64,000 nt of DNA from an uncultured Lachnospiraceae bacterium (GTDB lineage Bacteria > Bacillota > Clostridia > Lachnospirales > Lachnospiraceae). The position numbers and the translations under genes were made by a program. The notes under the pieces are model-generated. The model was not told the DNA's origin. It did not search any database and was given only the letters and a program-made list of their open reading frames with translations. This document shows positions 9,718 through 50,454 of this stretch, in pieces. Each line of letters opens with the position of its first letter. Position 1 is the stretch's first letter. The DNA lies in the NCBI GenBank assembly GCA_947167135.1, contig CAMVGV010000007.1:1-64000 (forward strand), in the 5' to 3' direction.

Positions 9718-9774
9718 GTTTCTCTCCTTTATTAAAGCTGTTTTTCAATACTATGATTAAAGCGCCAAAAGTAA

Positions 9775-9912
9775 TTGTCACCACACAAGCTTGCTTGTGG
9801 TGGGGACAAGGACTTTGGGCGCACCCCAACACGAGCATGAAGTGGGGAAGGGGCCCCACGAAATGCGAGTGTGGGGTAGGATTGTGGGAGTGCGAAGCAC
9901 GGAACAATCCGT
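9775..9912. repeat. dispersed hairpin element with GA internal loops (family B)
   Basis: Three nested hairpins occur in a row. The first is CACAAGC/GCTTGTG. In the second, CCCCAACAC pairs with GTGTGGGG, then come a GA/GA internal loop, GCAT/ATGC, a GAA/GAA loop and GTGGGG/CCCCAC. In the third, GGATTGT pairs with ACAATCC around GGGA, GTGC, GAA, GCAC, GGA. The same architecture recurs at 34638-35063 with different paired bases, so this is a dispersed structured repeat. It occupies the histidinol-phosphatase to polymerase gap and no gene is visible here. Confidence 0.6.
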
Positions 9913-9952
9913 ATTTAATCAAAATGTGACTTTTGACGTCTGAATCATACTA

Positions 9953-34542: not shown

Positions 34543-34613
34543 GCACGGTTAGTACATCGGTAGTATATCAGCTTCCCAAGCTGAGGAGGCGGGTCCGACT
34601 CCCGTACCGTGCT
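34543..34613 (+). tRNA. tRNA-Gly (anticodon CCC)
   Basis: The 71-nt cloverleaf has acceptor GCACGGT/ACCGTGC, a short D arm, anticodon stem TCAGC/GCTGA with loop TTCCCAA, and T arm GCGGG/CCCGT with loop TCCGACT. The anticodon CCC reads GGG. The CCA end is not encoded. A run of six T follows at once and can act as terminator. Confidence 0.92.
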
Positions 34614-34633
34614 TTTTTAGTGTCCTCAATGCT

Positions 34634-35063
34634 ATCCGAATGTCGCATTTATGCGATCATTCGGATATGCATTAGAGGACCTGTCCGACACGAGCATAAA
34701 AGCTACGCGAGTGTATACGAGCGGAGCGATATGCGAGTGCCGGCAGGCGATTGCGGGAGTTGCGAAGCAACGGAGCAATCGTCTAAAAAAAGAACATGTG
34801 CCGGGCACAGAGATTGCGGGAGCGCTCCAGCGCGAAGCAATCTCTGTATTTTAAAATTGAGAATGTCGCATTTATGCGATCATTCGGATATGCATTAGAG
34901 GACCTGTCCGACACGAGCATAAAAGCTACGCGAGTGTATACGAGCGGAGCGATATGCGAGTGCCGGCAGGCGATTGCGGGAGTTGCGAAGCAACGGAGCA
35001 ATCGTCTAAAAAAAGAACATGTGCCGGGCACAGAGATTGCGGGAGCGCTCCAGCGCGAAGCAA
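34634..35063. repeat. 203-bp perfect direct repeat of hairpin element (family B)
   Basis: 34638-34840 and 34861-35063 are identical over 203 bp, with a period of 223. Each holds nested hairpins. The first is ATCCGAATG, TCGCAT/ATGCGA, CATTCGGAT (34634-34666, outer arm in the first copy). The second is CCTG..CACGAGCAT/ATGCGAGTG..CAGG (34680-34747). The third is CGATTGC with GGGA, GTTGC, GAA, GCAAC, GGA, GCAATCG (34748-34781). The fourth, CAGAGATTGC/GCAATCTCTG (34808-34846), is complete only in the first copy. The block fills the gap from tRNA-Gly to the flavodiiron gene; open frames across it are not genes. Confidence 0.85.
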
Positions 35064-47776: not shown

Positions 47777-48523
47777 CTATGCGTTAACTATCTTGCCGAA
47801 ATCTTCCTTAAGTGAAGCGCCTCCGATAAGTCCGCCGTCGATATTGTCCTTACTAAGGAGTTCGGCAGCATTTCCGGCGTTCATTGATCCGCCGTACTGT
47901 ATACGTACTTCCTCAGCTGTTGCAGCATCATACATCTCAGCGATCTGCTCTCTTATCATCTTGCAGACCTCTTCTGCCTGATCTGCGGTTGCGGTCTCGC
48001 CAGTACCGATTGCCCAAATAGGCTCATAGGCTATAACGAGCTTTTTAACCTGATCAGCGCTTACGCCGTCCAGATCCCACTTGATCTGACGTGCGATCCA
48101 CTCCTTATATGTCCCGGCCTTACGGAGTGAAAGTGACTCCCCGCAGCAGAGGATGGGATTTAAGCCCGCAGCAAATGCCTTCTTCACCTTTGCATTGATA
48201 AGCACATCATTTTCTCCGAAGATATCCCTTCTTTCTGAATGTCCGATAATGATATACTCAACTCCGGCATCCTTAAGCATGGGAGCCGAAATCTCACCGG
48301 TAAAAGCACCCTTGTCCTCAATATAGAAGTTCTCTGCTCCCACATGCACATTGCTTCCCTTTACGGCTTCCGCTACCGGTACTATATCAATAGCAGGTAC
48401 ACAGTAAACAACATCCACAGCATCATTCTTAACAAGATCCTTCAAGGTATTGCAAAGCTCCACTGCCTCGCTGGGTGTCTTGTTCATCTTCCAGTTGCCG
48501 GCAATTATTCTTCTTCTAGCCAT
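47777..48523 (-). CDS. tpiA: triosephosphate isomerase
   Basis: This 248-residue TIM-barrel enzyme of glycolysis interconverts dihydroxyacetone phosphate and glyceraldehyde 3-phosphate. It begins [20 protein letters not shown] with the catalytic Lys, has [16 protein letters not shown] with catalytic His, [16 protein letters not shown] with catalytic Glu, and the phosphate loop [17 protein letters not shown]. Length normal. RBS AAAGGAG. It is the last gene of the gap-pgk-tpiA set and is separated from pgk by a 690-bp repeat-rich gap. Confidence 0.97.
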
Positions 48524-48544
48524 TTTTATTCTCCTTTTCCTTTA

Positions 48545-48780
48545 TTAATTTAATCCGCCTCCGTTAAACGGAAGGCTTTCTTATTTTATCCGCCGCCCCG
48601 GTTACAGTTTTTTTCTCACATCCACCGTCCCGGTTACAGCTCTTCTTATTCATCCGCCTCCGCTGAACCCCTGTATTTCTGAACGGCTCAGACGGTTCTA
48701 TAACTCGGGCTTCGCATTGTAGCAGGCGCCACGTTTTCTTCCTCATTCGCCGCCCCGGCTACAGGTTTTTTTCTACATCC
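48545..48780. repeat. degenerate direct repeats and partial family C element
   Basis: Three related stretches start CCGCCCCGGTTACAG or close variants (about 48591, 48625 and 48750), two followed by a T-rich piece. 48656-48730 repeats the first half of the structured element at 48781 (GCCTCCGCTG, TGTATTTCTGAACGGCTCAG, GCAGGCGCC) but lacks the second half. It looks like an incomplete copy produced by a duplication of about 125 bp. No gene is visible. Confidence 0.65.
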
Positions 48781-48941
48781 GCCTCCGCTGTACATATGTA
48801 TTTCTGAACGGCTCAGACGGTTCTAGGACTTGAACTTCGCACTGTAGCAGGCGCCGCTATAGAAGCGGGCGGCGCCACAGTGCTCGTTCTCGTCAAGAAC
48901 CGCTGGCTAATTGTTCAGAAATACATTGTTTCAGCGGAGGC
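48781..48941. repeat. family C structured element, copy 1 (161-bp imperfect hairpin)
   Basis: The element folds on itself almost completely. From outside in: GCCTCCGCTG/CAGCGGAGGC; a 7x7 loop; GTATTTCTGAAC (48798-48809)/GTTCAGAAATAC (48913-48924); CGGTTCT/AGAACCG (48818, 48896); GCACTGT/ACAGTGC (48839, 48877); and a core GGCGCCGC/GCGGCGCC (48850, 48869). It lies between pgk and tpiA. An inverted copy is at 48982-49144. Confidence 0.75.
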
Positions 48942-48981
48942 TGCATATTTTATTTTGTACCCCGGTGTTGTAGATATCAAA

Positions 48982-49144
48982 CGGTCGAAGTGTGACGTAG
49001 TTGTTCCCAAACAATAAGCCAGAAGTTCTTAATAAGTCGGAGTCCTGTGGCGCCGCCCGCTTCTATAGCGGCGCCTGTTACAGGACGAACGACGAATTTA
49101 GAACTTGCTGAGCCGTTTGGGAATAACTACTCACACGAAGACCG
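48982..49144. repeat. family C structured element, copy 2 (inverted)
   Basis: The 163-bp hairpin is in opposite orientation to copy 1: CGGTC/GACCG; GAA/GAA loop; GTGTGA/TCACAC; GTAGTTGTTCCCAAAC (48997)/GTTTGGGAATAACTAC (49115); AAGTTCT/AGAACTT (49023, 49100); GTCCTGT/ACAGGAC (49042, 49080); core GGCGCCGC/GCGGCGCC (49049, 49068). The core loop is identical to copy 1, while paired positions outside it have changed in a compensating way. Neither copy contains a gene. Confidence 0.75.
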
Positions 49145-49215
49145 ATAGTCAAAGCCGTGAGTAAATACTGACTTCCGCGAGACCCTGTCGAAAAACATCA
49201 ATATGTAATTATGTT

Positions 49216-50454
49216 CTATTTGTCGTCTGCGGAAATAACGCCCGGAAGCTCCTTGCCCTCAAGGAACTCAAGCGAAGCGCCGCCGCCTGTGGAAATATGG
49301 GTCATCTTGTCGCCGAAGCCAAGGTTATTGACAGCGGCGGCGGAATCACCACCTCCGATGATGGTAGTGGCATCGGTAGCCGCCAGAGCCTCTGCAACAG
49401 CGACGGTCCCGGCTGCCAGAACAGGGTTCTCGGAAACGCCCATAGGTCCGTTCCATACAACGGTCTTTGCGGACTTAACAGCATCAGCATAGATCTTCCT
49501 GGTCTCGGGTCCGATATCCAGTCCTTCCTTGTCATCGGGAATAGAGTCGGTATTTACAATAACGGTCTGAAGATTAGGATCGTCAATAGGATCGGGGAAA
49601 GAATCTGCAGCAACTGTATCAATGGGAAGAAGCAGCTTCTTTCCGAGCTTCTCTGCCTTATCCATCATCTCCTTGCAGTAATCAAGCTTGGTGTCGTCAA
49701 CAAGAGACTTGCCGACCTTGCCGCCCTGAGCCTTTACAAAAGTATAGGCCATTCCACCGCCGATAATAAGCGTATCGCACTTATTAAGAAGGTTATCTAT
49801 AACTGCAAGCTTGTCAGCAACCTTGGCACCGCCAAGGATAGCAACGAAGGGACGAACCGGGTTCTCAACCGCATTTCCGAGGAACTTGATCTCCTTTTCC
49901 ATAAGGTAGCCCACTGCATTGGTGCCGCCCTTCTTTGAAATATACTTTGTTACAACTGCAACAGAGGCATGGGCTCTGTGGGCAGAACCGAAGGCGTCAC
50001 ATACATAGTCGTCCGCAAGCTCTGAGAGCTCCTCGGCAAACTTTTCACCGGCCTTCTCGGGCTTGGTCTCCTCTTCCAGACGGAATCTGGTGTTCTGAAG
50101 AAGGATCACATCTCCCTCATTCATTGCATTAACCGCATCGGTAGCCTTTGCTCCGGTAACGTTATCATCATCAATAAACTTTACATCCTTTCCAAGCTTC
50201 TCGGAAAGTTTCTTTGCAACGGGTGCTAAGGACTTTCCGTCCTTGTCATCAGCAGTCTTCACCTTGCCGAGATGTGAGCAGAGGATAACCTTAGCTCCGT
50301 CTCCCGCAAGCTTCTTGATAGTAGGAAGAGCCGCATTTATCCTGGTCTCATCGGTGATCTCACCTCCCTTAAGGGGTACGTTAAAGTCACAGCGCACCAG
50401 AACTCTTCTGCCCTTTGCATTAAAATCGTCAACAGTCTTTTTGTTTAAAGCCAT
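49216..50454 (-). CDS. pgk: phosphoglycerate kinase
   Basis: This 412-residue glycolytic enzyme transfers the acyl phosphate of 1,3-bisphosphoglycerate to ADP. Signature [23 protein letters not shown] is at the N-terminus, followed by [51 protein letters not shown] and the C-terminal [17 protein letters not shown]. Length normal, RBS AAAGGAG. A strong hairpin terminator lies between it and the upstream gap gene, so pgk may depend on read-through or a promoter not evident here. Confidence 0.97.

Follow-up and report, generated by a model that had tools for sequence, protein, structure and literature searches.

A covarying palindromic repeat family of Lachnospiraceae with a fixed mismatched core, possibly kept in folded DNA form

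Bacterial repeats such as ERIC, NEMIS/Correia, RUP and RU-3 are non-autonomous sequences of about 100-200 bp, present in many copies and able to form one long stem-loop, according to the main text of a review of such MITEs (PMC2229807), and the element described here resembles them in this; the word stem 'compensat' has no occurrence in that main text. The attC sites of integrons, as characterised in PMC2727003, are palindromes with little sequence conservation that are recognised as folded single-strand DNA through their extrahelical bases. Sponge mitochondria contain repetitive hairpin elements that, in the account given in PMC2800124, form hairpins, are thought to be mobile and have a patchy spread, as our element has. 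The REP and REPIN sequences associated with RAYT transposases are intergenic palindromes that also share with it the arrangement in inverted pairs found at several places. The double-hairpin elements of Allomyces mitochondria are reportedly another set of hairpin-forming repeats thought to be mobile. Two-sided covariation in a helix often counts as the strongest sign that an RNA is functional.

Here, we analysed 64,000 nucleotides of an uncultured Lachnospiraceae bacterium (assembly GCA_947167135.1, contig CAMVGV010000007.1, positions 1 to 64,000 of the forward strand), hereafter the window. Genomes, contigs and loci are given by our own handles. The genes pgk and tpiA, both on the minus strand, are separated by a gap of 692 nt. 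It contains two full copies of a palindrome that face opposite ways, together with a half copy, one orphan arm and a further, small palindrome:

48556..48576, no strand assigned: small palindrome GCCTCCG...CGGAAGGC, similar to copy 1's outer arms but lacking the core
48588..48783, plus strand: three direct repeats of 39 nt (ATCCGCCGCCCCGGTTACAG...), 74-100% alike, adjoining the element
48656..48730, plus strand: half copy, comprising the 5' arm and part of the apex, 87% identity with copy 1
48781..48941, plus strand: full copy 1, an imperfect palindrome of 161 bp with apex TATAGAAGCGG; covariance-model match 48797-48924, 143 bits
48819..48835, plus strand: 5' side of the conserved core of copy 1, GGTTCTAGGACTTGAAC (commonest form in the family CTAAG..TC)
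48891..48908, plus strand: 3' side of the conserved core of copy 1, CGTCAAGAACCGCTGGCT (commonest form in the family TC..CTAAG)
48982..49144, minus strand: full copy 2, 163 bp, in inverse orientation to copy 1; covariance-model match 49001-49127, 144.6 bits
about 49153..49203, minus strand: orphan 5' arm from a third element, truncated just inside ACGGCT

A sequence-only reading of this DNA had described two copies folding nearly end to end and a half copy at 48656. The observation is real, and stronger than first stated. Copy 1 folds at -96.4 kcal/mol (z -11.6) and copy 2 at -86.1 kcal/mol (z -10.9), with 0/200 shuffles as good in either case, and the opposite strands of both also fold. The half copy is present. 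The homologous helices that had been quoted are there as well: CGGTTCT/AGAACCG in one copy corresponds to AAGTTCT/AGAACTT in the other and GCACTGT/ACAGTGC to GTCCTGT/ACAGGAC, and the loop TATAGAAGCGG is identical in the two copies. At the orthologous place in G011 (L009) a full element bears the arm that is orphaned in the window; the outer part of this match probably represents flanking sequence common to both. Where the window has its 39-nt repeats, G011 and G037 have longer repeat series. Repeats of the outermost arm beside an element, as between pgk and tpiA, were also seen at L098 (G014:C15) and L069 (G022:C69).

The copies belong to a family with a common architecture. The full copies that were measured span about 160-240 bp, and shorter forms also exist. 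The outer arms differ among the copies of a single genome yet largely pair (ends of 66 copies), and pairing runs on outward past the model by a median of 24.5 nt (80 copies). Inside these arms, CGGCTC most commonly faces GGCTNATTG, an arrangement that includes a conserved G-U and a bulge; a short variable helix follows, and then the core. There, A faces A in 79 of the 82 distinct rows. The flanking pairs read CTAAG opposite CTAAG in 51 rows and CTAAA opposite TTAAG in 21, and since the two forms alternate, a pair close to the fixed A/A mismatch covaries too. The window carries two of the rarer variants, CTAGG/TCAAG in copy 1 and CTAAA/TTAAG in copy 2. Next to the A/A core, TC is opposite TC in 58 rows, with TC/TT in 17 and TT/TC in three (78 of the 82 rows in total). 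Further in come more short helices and an apical module of variable length and sequence. One such module, GCGGAACTCGCTTCGCTCA(A/G)ACAGTCCTC, is common to G199:C14, G000:C21, G032:C40 and G307:C28 and, with small changes, G126:C21; it is thus shared across genera while the arms differ. Elements form inverted pairs in the window, in G032, in G001:C18 and in G002:C11. At L010 (G037:C51, 1518-1644) we noticed a hybrid copy whose poorly pairing arms come from different element types, which reflects either recombination at the apex or misassembly.

Used as a BLAST query, copy 1 recovered further partial copies in its own genome; within the genus, 8 of 48 genomes had matches. A covariance model, the check that the sequence-only reading had proposed, recovered the same fold in further copies: built from 14 sequences and used at E up to 0.01 with stricter filters, it matched 23 of the 48 genomes, with a maximum of 24 per genome, among the matches listed. 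A broader model, at E up to 1e-5, matched 10 of 299 genomes of the family; the window's genus accounts for two of these, and the window's own genome gave nine matches. In other genera, five genomes have strong matches (G099, G126, G181, G199, G265) and three have weaker and shorter ones in which the CTAAG core is readable (G077, G086, G147). The spread of the element across scattered genomes of other Lachnospiraceae genera is patchy. The exact core pattern was found in 27 stretches of named genomes, 25 of them titled Lachnospiraceae, one Acetatifactor and one 'Chlorobiota', and 13 of the titles name the rumen. The 'Chlorobiota' match (L139) has no rod-like fold and was taken as chance. Viral contigs gave no match to the exact core pattern. 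A class-wide pattern search matched 14 of 391 genomes; among the sequences listed, by their first 80 letters, those of G000, G307 and perhaps G398 look real and most others resemble chance. Four candidates from a gapless search for short forms were dropped. Among the open-licence PMC papers listed by our literature searches, no title or abstract opening describes the element.

That paired sides change together, which had been proposed from two copies, applies to the family at large. Among 13 distinct sequences of the genus, pairing holds in 94.1% of cells, and both sides have changed in 34 of 47 pairs, where shuffles give a mean of 16.3 (0/500 as high). In a structure-free MAFFT alignment of 14 sequences, 100 cells show two-sided changes and one a one-sided change; leaving out the conserved wobble, four cells are G-U and eight A-C. 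Over all 82 distinct aligned rows, opposite-strand and short ones included, there are 1031 two-sided against 27 one-sided standard changes, and with the conserved wobble column set aside the pairs comprise 3210 Watson-Crick, 46 G-U, 56 A-C and 238 other. Because this last alignment was fitted to the structure, we also aligned each 5' arm with the reverse complement of its 3' arm without RNA scoring. In 81 of the 85 matches (two short copies, one on the opposite strand and one identical duplicate being left out), this gave 173 G-T, which includes about one conserved per copy, and 167 A-C. We agree with the earlier view that the pattern is more than simple decay.

Orthologous sites show how individual copies fare. 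Across 20 genomes, the gap between pgk and tpiA holds full elements in five (G000, G003, G011, G037, G032), shortened derivatives in two (G004, G001), a mere 15-61 nt in seven, and other sequence without a match in six, including G046, where the stretch read has no pgk; the broader model gave a concordant result at these loci. Fifteen regions orthologous to six copies of the window's own genome gave five full copies, two short forms, one half copy and seven regions without a copy, and in several of these seven the surrounding intergenic DNA differs as well. The orthologue of copy C9 in G003, counted here among the full copies, consists of two tandem copies over 476 nt. The short forms, C30 in G037 and C6 in G003, have a model match of 57 nt each and are joined at the CTAAG repeats, which are both direct and inverted. 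As both G000 and G003 have the long form at C30, G037 more probably lost sequence than the others gained it by insertion. Other internal deletions have different break points and may thus have arisen by slippage at the palindrome. Orthologous sites where a copy is absent, halved or internally deleted show that elements are gained and lost; no clean insertion junction was resolved in the 15 regions.

Sixteen non-independent comparisons between orthologous copies reveal the tempo of change in the stems. Ten close comparisons (at most 10 differences) have 18 single-sided changes in pairs and no two-sided one. C9 is left out of these counts because its G003 partner spans two tandem copies; adding it makes 22 single-sided and two two-sided changes in 11 comparisons. 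Over the 16 comparisons, single-sided changes led to G-U in seven cases, to A-C in 12 and to other mismatches in 21, and six started from non-Watson-Crick pairs. Two-sided changes number 30, of which 28 fall in the five comparisons with at least 18 differences. Hence, the two-sided pattern belongs to longer divergence, as is expected if spreading lineages must keep the fold, and template switching would look alike in part. Among close orthologues, 18 of 1,398 paired positions changed against 28 of 569 unpaired ones, which suggests that some constraint or correction acts even without movement. Uncompensated stem changes, which the sequence-only reading had named as evidence against selection on folding, do therefore occur between close orthologues, whereas across the family further copies abound and stem changes are compensated.

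By a narrow balance of probability, we favour a mobile or formerly mobile family of palindromes that is maintained as folded DNA and mobilised in trans by a predicted enzyme. The form that matters would be the folded DNA, whether a single-strand hairpin or an extruded cruciform. A protein supplied in trans may recognise the folded core through its fixed mismatches and cut or join it there, in which case lineages that still spread would have to keep their helices. Resident copies would meanwhile decay slowly, by single-sided changes, halving and internal deletion. Our main reason for preferring recognition of folded DNA is that the mismatches persist between covarying helices. Several results weigh on the other side: no transposase or recombinase recognised in the small regions beside the copies, no target duplication visible in seven copies, no clean junction, the slower change of paired positions in close orthologues, and two-sided changes in place in more diverged ones. 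One might speculate further that this is a system beyond integrons and REP/IS200, a folded hairpin substrate read through the A/A in CTAAG/CTAAG and through TC/TC or TC/TT by a predicted Lachnospiraceae enzyme, with exchangeable apical modules and recurrent loss of the apex between two CTAAG. We hold this fuller version tentatively and think it rather improbable as a whole.

The main rival is template switching in replication (quasi-palindrome correction): one arm would be rewritten from the other, and an ordinary palindromic repeat would then need no selection for folding. A switch alters both sides in one event, so wobble would hardly appear; it predicts scarce G-U and two-sided changes, as observed. 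The process is described for RNA hairpins in the account of PMC8794818. Repeated arms, halves and the hybrid copy suggest trouble of replication or recombination at the palindrome. Even between close orthologues, change is slower at paired than at unpaired positions, and the two-sided changes in place in the more diverged orthologues also fit. Yet, template switching should erase mismatches, and A/A and TC/TC or TC/TT persist right beside helices of 3-7 bp that do change. Moreover, the ten close comparisons show single-sided changes exclusively. Taken with these points, we consider template switching a serious but unlikely explanation.

The sequence-only reading had left open whether folding was selected as RNA or as a DNA hairpin. 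The second option gains from our results and the first loses. When an RNA is selected on one strand, G-U is expected to be favoured on that strand. The c-di-GMP-I riboswitch of the same genus, a small control (22 of 29 matches, six truncated loci and the weakest being left out; 19 distinct sequences, 15 pairs), has 247 Watson-Crick, 27 G-U, 6 A-C and 5 other pairs, with 41 two-sided and 20 one-sided changes. The element differs from it both in the ratio of G-U to A-C (Fisher p 2.4e-4) and in that of two-sided to one-sided changes (Fisher p 7e-15). Nine tRNAs gave 183 Watson-Crick, 12 G-U, 0 A-C and 0 other pairs, although ARAGORN may favour G-U. In the element G-U is no commoner than A-C, unlike in these RNA controls, and the structured-RNA reading is thus disfavoured; the paired arm changes point to selection or copying at the level of DNA. 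Relative to neighbouring genes, the 81 copies lie along both in 26 cases, against both in 31, between convergent genes in 12 and divergent ones in 10, with two unassigned, so that a crude ORF caller shows no orientation preference. The suggested comparison with Rfam, including HEARO, returned nothing for the element: over the whole window, Rfam 15 has no family at gathering score on the palindromes, and the five matches at E up to 10 in 48400-49300 are all far below their gathering scores. Strong folding on either strand and very strong covariation would suit a structured non-coding RNA or a cis-regulatory RNA hairpin, but the base-pair balance, the mixed gene orientation and the Rfam result make either improbable.

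Which enzyme might move such repeats? No transposase or recombinase was recognised beside the copies in the small regions around them. Neighbouring genes (230 ORFs) were clustered, and the recurring clusters listed look like housekeeping and transport functions, judged from sequence by eye; their recurrence largely reflects orthologous loci. A larger version with an internal gene was sought by BLAST of one element in four genomes, which yielded no gene-sized insert; the paired halves lie up to about 195 nt apart and some halves are partnerless. No integron integrase passed the cut-off in any of the 48 genomes, and weaker tyrosine-recombinase matches occur in 48/48 of them, likewise in 14/14 control genomes. 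Y1 transposases are found in 24 of the 48, RAYT-like ones (classed by score and length) in 14. A REP/BIME-type repeat moved by such a REP-associated Y1 transposase would be palindromic, intergenic and at several places paired in inversion, all of which the element is. The window's own genome also has REP-like repeats adjoining its copies: eight copies belonging to one subtype have GTGTCC...GGACAC, or a variant of it, as their ends, and the repeat TCATCCTGAGCG...GAAGGATC (TCATCCTGAGCGAAGCGAAGGATCTT, often in series; L277-L283, L094) is complete within about 200 nt of seven of the eight and partly present beside the eighth. No target-site duplication was seen by eye in seven own-genome copies. 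On the other side, no element copy lies at the 14 Y1 loci read (12 RAYT-like, one of them partial, and two IS200-like; 2-5 kb each). Elements are present in 7 of the 14 genomes that have a RAYT-like gene and in 16 of the 34 that lack one, among the matches listed and counting the weak fragment of G040 as none, so there is no correlation across the 48 genomes. The copies also exceed the 20-40 bp given for REPs in PMC3733652. Mobilisation by a RAYT thus seems a shade more improbable still than an RNA. Separately, a RAYT-like gene at L214 (G016:C4) has palindromes with 40-nt arms (GGGGAGACAGGGGGACGGTCC...) nearby.

Intrinsic terminators or mRNA-processing hairpins are highly improbable, for although T runs follow a few copies and the window's copies lie between co-directional genes, T runs stand beside the palindrome in 2 of the 80 copies counted (out of 81) against a background of 15/324, and there is no strand preference.

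The window also contains three Clostridiales-1 RNAs (RF01699):

9754-9921: Clostridiales-1 RNA
34612-34792: Clostridiales-1 RNA
34842-35011: Clostridiales-1 RNA

This family is present in 42 of the 48 genomes, with at least 46 matches in one genome, many of them near identical. Its helices show 247 two-sided against 14 one-sided changes, unlike the riboswitch control, and 17 G-U to 7 A-C, a balance that does not differ from that control (p 0.36). For a curated Rfam family with so few one-sided changes, the same question arises of whether it is kept as RNA or as DNA. Our element combines very strong covariation with no wobble preference, and the balance of G-U to A-C can hence separate pairing at the DNA level from pairing at the RNA level. 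If an enzyme reading folded DNA exists, the element would add a further folded-DNA mobility system to integrons and IS200/REP. If template switching makes the pattern, these repeats offer a rich natural data set for that mutational process.

How does the element compare with the systems from which we started? Clostridiales-1 RNA resembles it in its many copies in the same genomes and its strong two-sided covariation, but consists of three hairpins on a junction, and its covariance model has no match at 48400-49300. The element is likened to attC in that here too a folded strand whose unpaired bases are conserved seems to play a part. By the integrase test it is not attC, given that none of the 48 genomes has an integron integrase over the cut-off; its copies are scattered over contigs, and no cassette array was noticed at the loci read. 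In contrast to REP and REPIN, full copies reach about 160-240 bp, and the RAYT-like loci that were read contain none. The sponge elements, as far as PMC2800124 describes them, have constant stems and variable loops, whereas here it is the stems that vary, in pairs. Compared with ERIC, NEMIS/Correia, RUP and RU-3, the element lives in other hosts, shows no target duplication by eye in seven copies, and has arms that vary from copy to copy with pairing kept. It shares with MITEs the many short copies with inverted repeats and the presence or absence at orthologous sites. These repeats form a new palindromic family that behaves like a MITE, covaries at the DNA level and has a fixed mismatched core.
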